Source: Umbilicaria muhlenbergii (taxonomy: Eukaryota > Ascomycota > Lecanoromycetes > Umbilicariales > Umbilicariaceae). Taken from it: a stretch of 64,000 nt of DNA. The position numbers were made by a program, and so were the translations under genes. Below, in pieces: positions 3,387 through 58,243 of the stretch (positions within the stretch are counted from its first letter, which is position 1; every line of letters starts with the position of its first letter). The stretch spans positions 3,313,072 through 3,377,071 of the forward strand of contig KK106983.1 of the NCBI GenBank assembly GCA_000611775.1. Reading direction: 5' to 3'. The notes under the pieces were generated by a model, which was not told the origin of the DNA, made no database searches, and saw only the letters and a program-made list of their open reading frames with translations.

Positions 3387-4764
3387 ATGTGGATCTTGCG
3401 GATAATCTCCCAGGTCGTCTCGCTCACCTCCATCATCTTCTCGGTCCCCTTGGCATTTGATGTTGGCGGTAGAACGTGCGGCCTGGCGTTCTCGTTGTCG
3501 TTGGCTTCTTTCTACTTCTTCTACTCAATACTACGGTTGTCGACGCCAGACAAATCTCGCTTCCGATGGGCGATAGCGCAGATGATCAGATTCACACAAT
3601 GGCTAGTGCTGCCCATCTTGCTGATATGGTCGCTCAATCGCTTCTCGGTGGACTCAGATAACAGCAGTGGCTGGGTGGAGAGGACGTTCAGCGGAAAGAG
3701 GGCACATGATGCTTCCGTAAGCGAGTGGATCTTTGGCCATGATGGGTTGGTGGAGTCGGCGACAGTGGGAAGCTGGGACAAGATGTTAAGATGGTCAACT
3801 CCGATTTTCCAACTCTGCGAGGGCTTTTGTAGCTTGTTGGTCATTCAAGCGGCGGGCCAGATTACCCGATGGCTAGTAAACCGGGGAGGGAGGTCTGACA
3901 GCTGGATGGTACGTGGTTCGCAACGAGGCCTTGGTCTTCCTGCTGATGGTGCCTGATTAGATCGGACTGCTGGTTATGTCCGCCTCGATTATATCGAGCT
4001 CGGTATACTTCCTATGGCGCATTATGAACTTCCCGGAAATTGGCAACGTGGACGCCACGCTCATTGGGATTACAATCACATGCGCCGTGTTTCTTTGTGC
4101 CTGGGGCATCGGTAGTGGAAAAGGGAATCCAGTCGAAAGCTCCCTGCTCTTCGCCTACATCGTCCTTTGCATCTATCAGATTTTCACCGACTATCAACCG
4201 TCCAATCCAGCAGCAGAAGGGATGCCCCCACCCTCTGAAGCCGCAGACTTCCCGCCTTTCCCGCCTATTATCATGGCGTCTTACACCACCCTTCTGCAGG
4301 CCCTTTCAACACTTCCCTCGACAATACATGCGGCTTTCAACTTCATTACCGCCGCTCTCAGCACGATCACCCCTTCTGTTATCATATCACTTGCCTACCG
4401 CCTCTTCGTACTCTACGCATCAACGCGCATCATACCAGCAGTACGAGACTCGGGTGCACGAGCTCTATCCCAAGAAGCATCTCTGGACGATACGGACGGT
4501 GCTGGCCAAGTGCTAGGCTTACTCAGCTGGTTTAGCCCCAGTATCTTGGTCGCGGTCTATACGAGCCTTCTGATGCAACACTTTGCCTCCACAAGTGGGG
4601 AAGGCAATGGAGGAGACTGGTGGACCAGCCAAGGAGGCGACGCTGGCGGTAACCTATGGCGATGGATCAACGTCGCTGGGACCATGGCTTTGTATGCACT
4701 GGAGTTGTATATTGGGAAAGAGGATATAGATGGGCCTCTCACTGGGCACTGGAAGGCCGATTGA
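3387..4764 (+). CDS. ICE2: Ice2-family ER membrane protein
   Basis: Ice2 is an integral ER membrane protein needed for cortical ER structure; in yeast it links ER growth to phospholipid synthesis and lipid-droplet use (family knowledge). Exons 3387-3908 and 3961-4764 give 441 residues; the intron (GTACGT...GATTAG, 52 bp) falls between SDSWM and IGLLVMSAS. The chain is strongly hydrophobic, with many predicted membrane segments: near residues 1-60 and 70-90, again near 175-255, then around PSVIISLAYRLFVLYAS and PSILVAVYTSLL. It ends in a short acidic/Gly-rich loop, a final helix (TMALYALELYIG) and a polar tail. The start is the first ATG of the frame. Family assignment rests on overall hydrophobic layout and remembered sequence. 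Confidence 0.85.
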
Positions 4765-5608
4765 ACGACCATGGAGGAATGTGGTCGTAGAGAGAAGTAT
4801 AGGGAGAAGAGTGGTCGAACCGTACAAGGTCGACAATGCGGGCTGCCACTCAGGCTACCATATCCAAGAGCTCGAGTTCCGGGTGGTCAGCAAGGCCTGC
4901 GCCGTTCTGGCACACGAGTACCAGGCACCCGTCCAGTGGCTGTGGCACATGAGCTTCTTCACCAGAACCGTCGGGAGAAACCCTGGGGGCGTCTCCAAGT
5001 GATCCACCCTTCCCGACAACACCCCCGAATAGCAAGAGGCTTGGGCAGGAGCTCTTTGGGAGATCAGGGACGCATTTGCAGGTATTAGAGGGTCCGGAAG
5101 CGGCATTTAGCAGGCACGGATTCGTTTTGTGGGCGCGCATATACCTAATTCATTGAGATACCCAGTATGACCCATTGTTGCTAGTTTGTTATGCATGTGG
5201 TTCAGAGAATCAATTTGTATTAGCAATCTGAGTGCTTTTCACCCTGAGATCTCATTGGGATCTTCGAGACCTGTATGCCTCGTGCAAGCATAAAAAACCC
5301 GTCATGGCTAAGGTTGAAGTGTTGGCATTTTGAGGCTGTACATCATTTGATAAATCAACAACAAAAGGATATGGACATGGGTACTGCAACCTTTTCCCCG
5401 ACGTCGAGCCGGACCCAACGGGCATCACGAGATGTCAGACTCAAGTAGAAGAGGACATGATTATTGCTATTCTCAACGCCATGGAACCAAAGCTACCATA
5501 CGACCAAGCCAAATCCGCCGTCGCGACCGTACCTGTGTATCGAGATCATCAAAGGACGCATTGTACAAAAGGTCATGGCAGGTAAACATCCAAAGACACA
5601 TATTGCGC
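4765..5608. other. Intergenic, convergent ICE2 and NOP15 ends
   Basis: 844 bp between the two stop codons. Frames near 4771-5140 on both strands have no recognisable domain and no splice context. I see no gene here. Confidence 0.55.
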
Positions 5609-8600
5609 TCAAGCCGCCTTCTTCGCCTTCCTCGACTTCGTCACCCCCGCCTTCTCCACCATCGTCTTCCCCCCCGCCTTCCGCACCCGGGTCGTCTTCA
5701 CGCTCTCGCTCACGACAACAGTCCCGTCTCCCTCCCCTCCATCCACAACAAGGCTCCTCTCCTGCTCCACCATCTCCACGTCGGCATCCGCGTCCATGCC
5801 CTCGAGCGCCTTCGGCTTCACCGGCACGGCATCCACGCCCTTCAGCTCCCCGGCTTCGAACTCGTATCCAATCTCCTTGAGCTTATCCGCCTTCTCGCTG
5901 CGCCTCTTCTTCTCCCCTTCAATCCTCTTCTCCCACCCTTCCCGTCCCATGCCCATCTCCAATTTCCGGCCTTCGATCTTGTTCCACGGAACGGCCTTGA
6001 AGCGCTTGCCCGCGCCCTTCCACAGGTTCTCGTGGACCTGCTCTTTGGGCACGACCTTGCACTTCAAGATGTGGCCGAACATGAGGTAATTGTCCATGGT
6101 ATCGGCGACGATCTTGGCCACCTCGGAGGAAGCGAATTCGAGGAAGGCGTAGTGCTTGGAGTGGCCGGTGCGTTTGTTGCGCGAGAGGCGGAGGCGCTGG
6201 ATGGTGCCGAATTGGGAGAAGTAGTCGCGCATTTCATACTCGTAGAAGCCGTGGGGGATGCGCCTGAACGAGTATGGATTGTTAGTAAAGTAACAATTAA
6301 ATGGAACAAGTCGGCATGGTGATGCATGGAGCGTCATACCCAACGTAGACCACACCAGGCCCATCTCCCTCGCCTTTGATGCCCTTGAGCTTCTTTTGAA
6401 CCTTCTTCGCGTCCGGAAGAGCAGGAATGTCTTGCCCAGACTTGAACTCCTCACCCTCGGCAGCGTCCTCCTCGTCGTTGCTCTCAAAGCCTTTGAGCAA
6501 GGCTGCAGTCTGGTCGTCTTCGGAAACGTCGTCGTCCTCGTCATTCTCTTCGGCGTCCTCCATCAGCTCACTAGCCGCTTCCTTTGCTTTCTCCTTGCCC
6601 TTCTTGGTCGCGGATTTGGCCGTCTTCTTCTTGTCTTTTAGTTCCTCAACGGCTCCATCAGCGGCCTCTTCGACGTCTCCCATGATAGACTTCTGTGCAC
6701 TACCAGCAAGTTCAACGACATAGTCCTTTGCCTCAGTAGCTTTCTGGACCGCCGCCTCCAGCACTGATTTGGCTGGCTGCTTCGTCTTCTTCGCAGTGTT
6801 CTTGACTGCCTCGGCAGCTTCGGAAGCGCTTTCTACAATTGACTTTTGCGCATCGTCCGCCAACTCACCCAAGGAATCTTTCGCAGCTTCGAGTGTCTGC
6901 GCCGCAGTTTTCAATGCCGATTTTGCGGGCTTCTTGCTCTTCTTAGCCGTATCCACAGCAGCTTCCATGACATCCCCTGCAGTCTCTACCACAGAATCTT
7001 TTGCAGCACCGGCCTTTGTCGCAGCAGAATCCAGCGCCGCCTTCGCTGGCTTCTTTTGCTTTTTAGCAGTCTCTACCACTGCTCCAGCTGCATCTCCAGC
7101 AATCTCGATAGCGGAGTCCTTGGCAGCACTAGCTTTTTCGGCCACAACGTCCAATGCATCCTTTGTAGGCTTCTTTAGCGATTTCGCCGTTGCCACTGCA
7201 GCCTCTGCGGCGTCGCCGGCCGTTTCGAGCGCGGAATCCTTGGCAGCGGCGGCTTTCTGCGCAGCAGCATTCATCGCCGACTTCGCAGGCTTTTTCTGCT
7301 TTCGCAGTTTGTCCGCCGTACCCTCGGCAGCGTTGACAAGAGCTGCCTTTGTGGCATCTACATTATCCCCAAGGCTGTCTTTCATAGTGCTAGCTTTCTG
7401 CTTTGCGGCCGGTACCCTCTTCTTGCCTGCATCCACCGCCGCGGCAGCAACCTCTTCAACTTTCTCCTTTGCCGCCTTGGCCTTTTGCTTGGCCGCCGGC
7501 TTCTTCTTCTTTGCTGCGTCAATGGCACCTGCAGCAGCGTCAGCAGCACCACTCGCTGCCTCTCCAATGTGATCCTTTGCAGCATCGGCGCCCTCCTTTA
7601 CAACCTCAATGGTCTCGCTCTCCATCACAGAGTCTACTGTTTCTTTGGTAGCCTCAGGATAATAGCCCACCATCTTTTCAAGTTGGTCCTTCGCAGCACT
7701 GGCTCTCGAGCCGACAGCTTCGATTCCGGAACTGACGAGACTTCCCAACGTCCGACTAGCACTGTCGGTTGCGCTTGGCTCGGACTTCTTCGACTTCTTT
7801 TTCGCGGCGGTCGGTTCCGGATGAGGGGCAGTGAGGTTCGACTTCACATTACCCTGGTCCGCGTCCGCAGGAGCTTTACGCTTCTTGGATTTGTTTGCTT
7901 GAGTCTTTGACGTCTCGTCCGAACCTGCGGTCGGCTTCTCATCCGAAGTAACGGTTTTCTTCCCCGGCTTCGTGCTAGCTTTTGATTTCTTTGGCTCCGA
8001 AGCTTCTGCCTTCTTGGCAGCCTTGGGCTTGGAGGTAGACTTGGTTTCTTTAGATGTAGCTTCAGCTAGATCAACCTCCTCAGATTGCTCCAAAGGTTTT
8101 GGTTCCATGATCATGACGGGAAGCGAAGCGTCAGCAGCGATGGCCGCTTTCGTTTTCCCATGTTCTGATGCCGATTCAGCACCGGCAGGCTGCTTATCCT
8201 TCTTGGTCACCTTTGACTTCCCTTTAGATTTGGGAATCGTCTTAGGCTCTTTGGCCTCGGCCTCAGCCTCAGCAACGTCATCTCGCTCGGAAGGCTCTAA
8301 AGGCGTAGGGTCCATGATCATGACAGGAAGTGGGGCCTCAGCGGCAATGGCAGCTTTTGTTTTGCCATGCTCGGGCGCTGATGCAGTCCCGGCAGCACCT
8401 TTGTGCTTCTTGGTCGCCTTCGACTTCGCCTTGCTCTTGGGCGTCGCTTCATGCTCCTTGGCCTCAGCCTCAGCGAGGTCGCCTCGCTCGGAAGTCTCTA
8501 ACGGAGTAGGGTCCATAATCATGACAGGAAGTGGGGCTTCCGCCGCGATGGTTGCTTTTGTTTTGCTTGAATCAGTTGCCGTCTTGGACTTCTTCTTTGG

Positions 8601-8819
8601 CTTCTCCGTCTTCGAATCCGACTTCTTCGTGGACTCTCCAGCCTTTGACTCTTCACCATCGAAGAAGTCGGCGGCGCGCTTGCGCGATGATTTTGGCGTC
8701 GTAGATGAGGTAGCTTCATCTTTGGCTGCCTTTGTTGTTGCACCCCTCTTGCTCGACTTGGCTTTTGAACTGGCATCGCTAGACCTCGTCACGGCCATAT
8801 CAGTATTCTTCTTGGCCAT
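5609..8819 (-). CDS. NOP15: Nop15/NIFK-type RRM ribosome-biogenesis factor with giant N-terminal repeat region
   Basis: Nop15 is a nucleolar RRM protein of the pre-60S particle, needed for 27S pre-rRNA processing. Exons 8819-6340 and 6263-5609 give 1044 residues; the 76-bp intron (GTATGA...TTCAG, branch CTAAC) splits the Gly of VVYVG|RIPHGF. The RRM is at about 822-900: GVVYVGRIPHGFYEYE, then HYAFLEF. A basic tail follows. The block ahead of it (ALLKGFESNDEED, GQDIPALPDAKK) matches fungal Nop15. The unusual part is residues 1-770, which are Lys/Ala/Ser/Glu-rich. Three ~66-residue repeats carry PLPVMIM (about 87-250), and an Ala/Lys region (about 385-770) has exact 40-residue units from 509, 549 and 589 plus looser copies. 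The start at 8819 reads MAKKNTDMAV. A likely 5'-UTR intron (GTATGT...TCACAG) lies just upstream. Confidence 0.93.
6936..7295 (-). repeat. Three coding 120-bp repeats in NOP15
   Basis: Units at 7295-7176, 7175-7056 and 7055-6936 each encode 40 residues. They begin KKPAK or KKPTK, pass through AAKDS, and end in an AGDA(A/V) segment followed by TAK. A fourth, longer copy follows from 6935. The pattern (periodic Ala, Lys pairs, AAKDS) resembles amphipathic helical repeats of LEA-like or H1-tail-like proteins; that comparison is inference. DNA copies differ at many third positions, so they are not recent. Confidence 0.85.
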
Positions 8820-9420
8820 GGTGATGCGCAGTTCAGGCCCTGTGAGAACGCGCAAGGTCAGTTGTGTTGATGTATTGGTCTGGTGAGTGTACACGCGAGA
8901 ATAAACATACCTCTCGCGCCTGTTTTGGCAATAGATCTCAGGCGCGTGAAAGACGGGTACTCCTATCCGATTCTTTTGTAGGAACAGAATGCGCAATAAT
9001 GTTGCGATGGTTGGTGGGTGTTGTCGCGCAAAGCGGTTGGAAAAGTAAAGTTGGGGTTCTTGAAGTGGGTCCCTCAGTCGCGCGAGAAACGAGGGAACGG
9101 ACGAAACGAGGCTTGCGGCTTGCGGCTTGCGGCTTGCAGACTGGCAGCGTTGGCTTGCGAGCCGACTGGGCTACCTAGCGTGTGCCTGGGAGCCTGAGAG
9201 CCTGAGAGCTTGAGAGCCTACCTTAGGTACTGGTAACCGCTGGGCTTGTGACTTAACACGCGGCTGAGGCGGCTTACTTGCAGTAGGGGTGCGGCATGCT
9301 AATTGTACGCTACACCATGAGGGAGTTACTCGTAGCTGGTTGAGAGAGTTACTCGTAGCTGATTGTCGGGGAAGCTTCGGTCGCATCGTTCCATCTGACG
9401 AACTCTTATGACTTGATACC
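8820..9420. other. Bidirectional promoter region NOP15 / SMN
   Basis: Divergent 601-bp spacer. On the NOP15 side a 5'-UTR intron is likely. Short tandem repeats are present: four copies of about GGCTTGC at 9112-9139 and a CTGAGAGC(C/T) cluster at 9189-9219. No protein gene is supported. Confidence 0.6.
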
Positions 9421-56913: not shown

Positions 56914-58243
56914 GTTCAGGGTTTGGCTCATGTGGTTCTGGGAGTTCGGATTCGGTTTCACGAAGAGCGGAATATAGGAATAGACTCCAATCATGAAGAC
57001 ACAGATTCGCTCCGTTCCATTCTCATTCCTGCAAACTCTCTTCAACAGTCCACCTCGTCTGCCGCCCTTCTCACGTGGCAAACCACCCCGCAGACTATCA
57101 GACCCAATCCCGTCGACTCAAGAGTAAGGCAACCCCGATCAAAGACTCTCCATCACCTATCCCACGCACACCCCCGGTCACAGCCCCATCCCCACCCCAC
57201 CACCTACAACCACCGCCCACACCCAACCTCCCCCCACCCCCCTCCCACCCGCACCACTCGCACCAACCCTCCCCCCACCCGAACGCCCCTCCCCCTCCCC
57301 ACAAGCCGGCACCGCAGACGAGAAAAGATTCGTCCTCTCCGCCTCAGCCACACCAACAGTGCCATCAGGAAGTCCAACAACAGCGGCCGAGCCAGCGGCG
57401 TTAATATTTCCGTCGATGCCATCTGCGGCGTTGCCGGCCGTGCTGCCGTTAACGACGGGAAGCGAAACGGTGGTGTTCGTGGTCATGTCCGTGGCGTCGA
57501 TGTTTTTGACGTAGAAGGAGAGGAGGGAGATGAACGACGGGAGGATGGGGAGGAGGAGGAGGATGGTGGAGAGGGGGAGGGAGGGGGCGAGAAGAAGCAT
57601 GGTGGTGAGGAGGGGATGGTGTGGAGGTGGAGGTTGGAGAGAAGAGCGGAGGGGGGAATGGTCGTGGGTATGTGCGGTAGCTGTGGATGGATCGGATTGC
57701 GCGGTGTTGGATCGGTGGGGCGGAAGTGGTTGAGAAGACGTGTCTGGTGTGGAAGGTTGAGAGAGGGGAGGTTGGGAAGATCTATCTCGTCTTCGTCGGT
57801 ATGAGTCTTTGGTTGGGGTCGATGCGGTGAAGTATGGGGAGTCAGAGGTGCAGGACGCGGATGAATGACAGGGCGGCGCGGCTTCAGCGTGAATGAGAGT
57901 GGCAAGGCGTGATGGGCAGTCTATCAGAATGAGTGGCGGCTTTTGGAAGACGCGGTTGAAGGCTTGTTCAGCAGCAGATTGCTTCTGAGAGCGGTATTCC
58001 GCAATACGGAGAGAGTGGATTTCCAGAGCTCTCCATTTCTTCTCGAAACTGCGGATATCACTTTTCTTCTAGCCGTCCTTTCTTTGGTGACTAATCGAGA
58101 ATTTCCTGCAGGTTTTGACTGTGAGCTACGGTCCATTTTGACGAATGTACCCAACGGTGCTGAGCTGCAATATTCAGTAGGACATACAGCGCACGAACAA
58201 CAAAAGCACTCCGCCAATCAGAAATTGTCACTCTTGTACTCCA
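56914..58243. other. Low-complexity spacer with strand-skewed tracts
   Basis: 1330 bp. At about 57130-57310 the plus strand is very C-rich; at about 57500-57800 it is very G-rich. A minus-strand frame 57600-57178 (about 140 codons) opens with a long hydrophobic stretch (LSTILLLLPILPSFISLLSF) followed by KNIDATDMTTNTTVSLP and an Ala/Gly-rich part. It might be the first exon of a small membrane protein, but I found no family match and no clear downstream exon. Other frames here are proline- or serine-run artefacts. Confidence 0.4.

Follow-up and report, generated by a model that had tools for sequence, protein, structure and literature searches.

In a 64,000-nucleotide stretch of the Umbilicaria muhlenbergii genome (contig KK106983.1, positions 3,313,072 to 3,377,071; hereafter the window, from whose first letter positions are counted), the gene at 8819-5609 codes on the minus strand for one protein of 1044 residues, the last third of which is, by sequence, a clear orthologue of the ribosome assembly factor Nop15/NIFK. 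The conserved part is preceded by an extension of about 730 residues that contains two different repeat families. Two of its features are newly described here, namely a codon-level constraint between the repeat copies and a single sharp helical periodicity of 99.0 degrees. Our preferred reading, to which we give a probability of roughly 0.4, is that the extension would be a multivalent nucleolar anchor, combining docking motifs with a helix that folds on binding, mounted on an otherwise standard foot factor of the internal transcribed spacer 2 (ITS2).

The assignment of the gene to NOP15 in the initial annotation is borne out by a phmmer search against 177,635 distinct PDB sequences, which gave 126 matches at E <=0.01. 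Among the best 60 of these 126, the top five are all Nop15/NIFK proteins (E 3e-67 to 3e-27) and the next RRM protein follows at 9e-10, placing the RRM nearer to Nop15 than to other RRM proteins and the protein within Nop15/NIFK. The best match is the Nop15 of Chaetomium thermophilum (8i9p_CI, 414 aa; E 3e-67); together with Schizosaccharomyces pombe C1827.05c (8esq_o, 276 aa), Saccharomyces cerevisiae Nop15 (11aa_o, 220 aa) and human NIFK (8fkp_SH, 293 aa) it covers the range E 3e-67 to 2e-28, and the fifth match is a 111-aa fragment of yeast Nop15. What is shared with the known Nop15/NIFK proteins is the RRM along with its flanking conserved region. The Pfam RRM_1 match falls in exon 2 (6068..6256, as with all gene features below on the minus strand; residues about 830-892; E 1.7e-11), and the conserved region after the RRM is likewise present, with the alignment reaching residue 976 in the case of S. 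pombe and 1042 in that of C. thermophilum. With the latter the protein further shares the C-terminal region and, ahead of the RRM, an acidic stretch and a QTxAL motif. The acidic stretch, MEDAEENDEDDDVSEDDQTAALLKGFESNDEEDAAEGE (6450..6563; residues 753-790), lies near the onset of the part common to fungal Nop15 in the alignments to 8i9p_CI and 8esq_o.

Similarity to Nop15 begins at residue 728 with S. pombe and at 731 with S. cerevisiae; hence, the extra part is about 730 residues long. The large repeat extension proposed earlier thus stands, and its length is to be corrected from the ~770 residues given then. The C. thermophilum alignment begins at residue 653, within low-complexity sequence. 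The four solved orthologues have 220-414 residues, in agreement with the earlier remark that known Nop15/NIFK proteins are short, and their N-termini differ in length. C. thermophilum Nop15 has a K/A/E-rich N-terminal stretch of its own, which at ~100 residues is shorter than the extension, and neither the LPVMIM repeat nor the 40-residue array described below is seen in the alignments of C. thermophilum, S. pombe and yeast Nop15. Among the open-licence papers listed by full-text searches on Nop15 and NIFK, no title or opening of an abstract describes an extension of this kind, and a broader search for ribosome factors with extensions returned no paper. When viral contigs were searched with the RRM exon, one stretch fitted the pattern and none was confirmed. 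Frames for other foot factors in the same genome, measured from stop to stop as exon frames rather than as gene models, comprise Nop7 (657 and 59 residues), Nop53 (394 and 104 residues) and five L1-domain matches, one of them presumably Cic1/Utp30, in frames of 79-429 residues. These are of ordinary length and hence give no sign of a general inflation of foot factors.

The initial annotation had held that a single unbroken frame traverses the repeats and is spliced into the RRM, so that the fusion is encoded and is not a misjoin. The gene structure agrees with this. Translation starts at the ATG at 8819, in the context CACCATGG. Exon 1 (6340..8819) is an 826-codon open frame that specifies residues 1-826 and two bases of codon 827, which takes in the entire extension and the start of the RRM (VVYVG). 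A 76-nt phase 2 intron (6264..6339; GTATGA ... TTACTAAC ... CAG), in which TTACTAAC is a branch-site-like sequence, joins VYVG to RIPHGF within the RRM, and exon 2 (5609..6263) supplies the remaining RRM, the C-terminal region and the stop at 5609. The junction VYVG/RIPHGF is gap-free in the alignments with C. thermophilum, S. pombe and yeast Nop15. The coding frame of exon 1 has no stops as against 8-48 in each of the other five frames, and nucleotide shuffles of the exon contain 34.7 on average with a minimum of 21 (n=200). In view of the open frame, the exact splice inside the RRM and the codon constraint set out below, we reject an artefact or misjoin in this assembly of 34.79 Mb in 7 contigs. 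Opposite NOP15, the plus strand at 5432-8886 holds three long open frames of 296, 267 and 304 codons that run antisense to the gene and may be a simple consequence of its codon composition.

The same structure bears on whether there are two products, with the repeat part forming a separate protein and Nop15 starting from an internal methionine such as that at residue 753. This methionine does lie close to the onset of the part shared with yeast, and the G+C content at third codon positions (GC3) is 0.54-0.65 in five segments of exon 1 versus 0.86 in exon 2. However, the larger GC3 step occurs between residues 771-827 (0.65) and 828-1044 (0.86) and not at 753. Moreover, no stop separates the repeat part from the RRM, the exon 1 frame left unspliced runs into a stop within the intron, mid-RRM, and the splice joins on to the first RRM strand exactly. 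We therefore regard two products as highly improbable.

The presence of two different repeat families, as claimed at the outset, is evident from self-comparison of the protein: the best local self-matches score 411 at lag 40 and 339 at lag 69, whereas none of 300 composition-preserving shuffles scores above 133. The lag-69 stretch spans both families, and lags 4, 7 and 11 are also enriched. Family 1 consists of three units, in each of which KTKAxIAAxAxLPVMIM(D/E)PxPLE is followed by an acidic stretch and then by Lys-rich sequence. The first (8364..8564; residues 86-152) shows KTKATIAAEAPLPVMIMDPTPLE, the acidic stretch and a Lys block; the second occupies 8157..8363 (residues 153-221) and the third 8007..8156 (residues 222-271). 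The three units with a PLPVMIM core had been foreseen with a length of ~66 residues each. Their number is upheld, and their spacing is 67 and 69 residues with a shorter third unit; Tandem Repeats Finder gives a period of 207 at 8104-8566. Searched as a DNA pattern, LPVMIM with a following D/E is present three times in the whole 34.79 Mb, always in NOP15 (0 for the reversed control), and a search of the genome with family 1 recovers only the three NOP15 copies. A SUMO-interacting or other named short motif was considered for LPVMIM and set aside as a resemblance only.

Family 2 is an amphipathic array of the hendecad type at 6510..7619 (residues 401-770). Within it lie the three exact 40-residue units reported earlier (6936..7295; residues 509-548, 549-588 and 589-628), each of the form KKPxKxAx...AAKDSxxExAGD...TAK, to which we add a fourth, weaker and diverged unit (6816..6935; residues 629-668). 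Searching the genome with this family returns the array itself and two weak matches, with E 0.03 and 0.96. Searches of PDB sequences with each repeat region gave one match apiece (E 0.6 and 0.44), and for both families Pfam and NCBIfam yielded only sub-threshold matches, to Apolipoprotein, to ApoLp-III and to bacterial families, of which the bacterial ones were judged to be due to chance (E 0.003 to 9).

The copies record constraint on the protein. Variable columns fall on codon positions 1, 2 and 3 as 3/2/16 in family 1 (16/21 at the third position; binomial P 7e-5) and as 11/14/34 in the three exact units of family 2 (34/59; P 1e-4). Over the first 24 codons of family 1, the proportion of differing synonymous sites (pS) in the three pairs is 0.45, 0.71 and 0.62, and that of nonsynonymous sites (pN) 0.037, 0.145 and 0.10. 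The ratio of nonsynonymous to synonymous divergence (dN/dS) of this core is 0.05, 0.08 and 0.08; when 40 codons are taken, two pairs give 0.17 and 0.13 and the third is saturated. In family 2, four of the six pairs give 0.15, 0.22, 0.33 and 0.17 and the other two are saturated at synonymous sites. In all these ratios dN is biased low by the choice of copies for protein likeness, which leaves the high synonymous divergence unaffected. Given the third-position changes and low dN/dS, the repeats look old, translated and constrained, and the extension is, on this pattern, most likely translated in its frame. Recent expansion through slippage was rejected in view of the strongly diverged synonymous sites.

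The same figures speak to a neutral origin, whereby a low-complexity expansion of no particular function would simply be tolerated by a disordered Nop15 N-terminus. The N-terminus of the Arabidopsis orthologue is reported as likely disorganised and yeast Nop15 as crystallised only without its own (PMC10267116), and the N-termini of the solved orthologues vary in length. Nevertheless, the protein has been kept over synonymous sites that are much diverged and, in some pairs, saturated (dN/dS 0.05-0.33 where computable), and a helical phase is held across diverged flanks. A neutral expansion accordingly appears quite improbable to us.

This helical phase is the second line of evidence. Over residues 405-770, the Fourier spectrum of hydrophobicity peaks at 99.0 degrees with a power of 23.8 (99th percentile of 400 shuffles, 6.1), falling to 2.3 at the hendecad angle of 98.2 and 0.2 at the heptad angle of 102.9. 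An angle of 99.0 degrees corresponds to 11 turns per 40 residues and lies near the twist that a straight alpha-helix has by nature. Equal 40-residue copies hold phase by construction, and therefore the flanks serve as the test: relative to the phase of residues 509-628, all seven flanking segments are offset by between -54 and +16 degrees (P 2e-4 under uniform phases), a coherence matched by 0/5000 segment shuffles, where the segment bounds 401-770 were fixed after the phases had been seen. When angles of 80-120 degrees are scanned, the flanks by themselves again give their peak at 99.0. Coherence hence extends past the three exact units and spans about 370 residues, ~401 to 770. A helical wheel, one of the checks proposed initially, resolves the array into three sectors, one of Ala/Leu/Val, one rich in Lys and one acidic (Asp/Glu), with the register kept over that range, and the mean 18-residue moment is 0.29 versus 0.16 in shuffles (maximum 0.22 of 200). 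Prolines from residue 441 to 682 are spaced by 29, 41, 40, 40, 40 and 51 residues; 5/6 of these spacings fit 7+11n, with a phase shift of <=9 degrees. Family 1 has no helical peak in the Fourier analysis. Together, these observations support a hendecad-type amphipathic array with the pattern of one long, three-sided, striped helix, as far as sequence can tell.

Such a stripe, phase-coherent over about 370 residues, near the twist of a straight alpha-helix and accompanied by the enriched lags of 4, 7 and 11, raises the possibility that the array associates with itself as a coiled coil, or forms a straight helical rod, so as to oligomerise Nop15 or to serve as a long spacer. We consider this rather unlikely: the hydrophobic face is dominated by alanine with few Leu/Val, prolines recur every 29-51 residues, and the power at the heptad angle is the mere 0.2 given above.

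Helices based on 11 residues are known from apolipoproteins, synucleins and perilipins (PMC6164224, PMC5889406), and long predicted amphipathic helices from LEA (late embryogenesis abundant) proteins (PMC6164224). The array resembles perilipin 4, alpha-synuclein, apolipoprotein A-I and LEA group 3 in having such helices with a weak, Ala-rich hydrophobic face and with Lys and acidic faces, and apolipoprotein A-I also in its punctuation by prolines. It could function in a similar way. It differs from these hendecad proteins in its period of 40 (three hendecads and a heptad), in its angle of 99.0 rather than 98.2 degrees and in the attached RRM ribosome factor. For residues 401-740, the hydrophobic, aromatic and charged fractions and the moment are 0.44, 0.003, 0.34 and 0.29; Table 1 of PMC5889406 lists 0.47, 0.02, 0.24 and 0.30 for alpha-synuclein, 0.40, 0.065, 0.35 and 0.39 for apoA-I and 0.35, 0.002, 0.15 and 0.257 for Plin4, the moments there and here coming from different programs. 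With values near the published ones, prolines 29, 40 and 51 apart and a Pfam Apolipoprotein match (PF01442) at E 0.001, one might envisage a giant amphipathic helix that binds lipid or an interface in the apolipoprotein/perilipin style, folding on a membrane or droplet. However, the Apolipoprotein match reaches 19.2 bits, far below the gathering cut-off of 90 bits and thus outside the family, the protein has no Pfam match to the perilipin family, and the hydrophobic face is mostly alanine. We also know of no lipid surface for a nucleolar RRM protein, and lipid binding of this kind seems to us improbable.

The resemblance to LEA proteins suggests a protectant against desiccation, heat or crowding that, tethered to the pre-ribosome, would help RNA and assembly factors in the nucleolus to stay in solution under stress. 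The sequence is Ala/Lys/Glu-rich with almost no aromatics, and 6/375 windows in residues 386-770 fit a LEA group 3 hendecad pattern at >=8/9 scored positions (0.46 expected; maximum 4 in 2000 shuffles). The genome further holds a separate 296-residue frame, L013 (G000:C1:10172337-10172834, minus), in which five LEA-like units of 33 residues recur, for example TSSGTDDAEGTAKSYMQSAQDTASNTAEKVTDS; it is the weak match to the Nop15 array at E 0.03. That match is weak, though, and family 1 is left unexplained by a protectant. Membership of the LEA or linker histone H1 families, which the initial annotation had suggested checking, has no support in Pfam: no LEA family matches at a limit of E 10 (HMMER filters drop most matches above about 0.1), and the H1 globular domain, PF00538, has no match in the protein, its sole match in the genome being at C6:712516. 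On balance, an LEA-like protectant is a possible, albeit unlikely, explanation.

Charge also appears to be arranged in blocks. Of 1000 shuffles, 4, 0 and 1 attain the variance of smoothed net charge observed in residues 81-270, 386-770 and 1-385, respectively, the first of these regions lying within the last. The grammar of nucleolar disordered regions, which fungi conserve as well, has been described as one of D/E tracts and of Lys blocks in alternation with acidic residues (PMC10936679). Apparently alternating charge blocks, along with an acidic stretch before an RNA-binding domain, liken the protein to nucleolar Lys-block/E-rich disordered scaffolds such as POLR1F/G, treacle, Nopp140/Srp40 and nucleolin, and by their sequence pattern these blocks fit a nucleolar role. 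It is set apart from such scaffolds by the amphipathic-helix pattern between the Lys blocks, by the hydrophobic motif family and by CK2 sites that are not clearly enriched. For this last reason a CK2-tract scaffold of the Nopp140 type was rejected; in residues 1-810 the count of CK2-type sites is reached by 17% of shuffles.

In the nucleolar-anchor reading that we favor, the RRM and C-terminal region would contact ITS2 within the foot of nucleolar pre-60S particles, by homology with the ITS2 binding reported for Nop15 of yeast (PMC5702609), C. thermophilum (PMC10702828) and Arabidopsis (PMC10267116). The Lys blocks, alternating with acidic and Ala segments, could, by electrostatic contacts to rRNA and acidic proteins, retain Nop15 and its particle in the nucleolus. 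The three conserved LPVMIM motifs on Lys-rich linkers might be repeated docking sites for one partner. The 370-residue array would be weakly helical alone and form long, straight, three-sided amphipathic helices on meeting a partner surface or another copy. The gene structure, orthology, repeats, between-copy protein constraint, helical register and charge blocks are what the sequence shows, and from them we infer the anchoring, docking and folding on binding. A protein kept despite DNA drift, with a helix pattern over about half of the extension, indicates that the extension probably does a real job, which is perhaps to hold the protein in the nucleolus.

Several observations, besides the low bias of dN, weigh against this reading. 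The extension aligns with residues 14-108 of C. thermophilum Nop15 no better than do shuffles, leaving a likeness of composition only. Residues 341-400 do not share the phase of the array, even though 361-400 are helical by pattern, and the proline spacing of 41 shifts the phase by 99 degrees and so breaks register. The net charge of residues 386-770 is -6, that is, nearly neutral, unlike a simple basic tail, and the same region has 13 CK2-type sites versus 8.3 expected (reached in 5.1% of shuffles), which is not a significant enrichment. Finally, any partner that docks on LPVMIM is conjectural.

A related idea draws on human NIFK, which is reported to need Ki-67, a giant repetitive proposed surfactant, to reach the periphery of mitotic chromosomes (PMC8354752). 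By analogy, Nop15 of U. muhlenbergii might carry its own giant, amphipathic, charge-striped extension and act as an amphiphile at the nucleolar surface, lining the edge of the nucleolus or of clusters of pre-60S particles as a perilipin-like coat, for a condensate rather than for a fat droplet. We rate this reading as very improbable.

Elsewhere in the window, the neighboring frame at 3976-4764 is ICE2. Three short tandem arrays with units of 7, 8 and 23 bases lie at 9110-9365, 290-550 bases upstream of the NOP15 start. A purine-rich 18/36-base tandem repeat occurs at 57539-57641, inside the plus-strand open frame 56923-57804.

Nop15 is a core factor of ribosome assembly whose N-terminal part is commonly regarded as disordered. 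The repeats in this case record drifted codons, a kept protein and a helical register that has been maintained, suggesting that a long "low-complexity" nucleolar extension can be selected for a definite physical shape. This Nop15 offers a compact system in which to test how the nucleolar retention of pre-ribosomes is set by Lys-block and amphipathic repeats.

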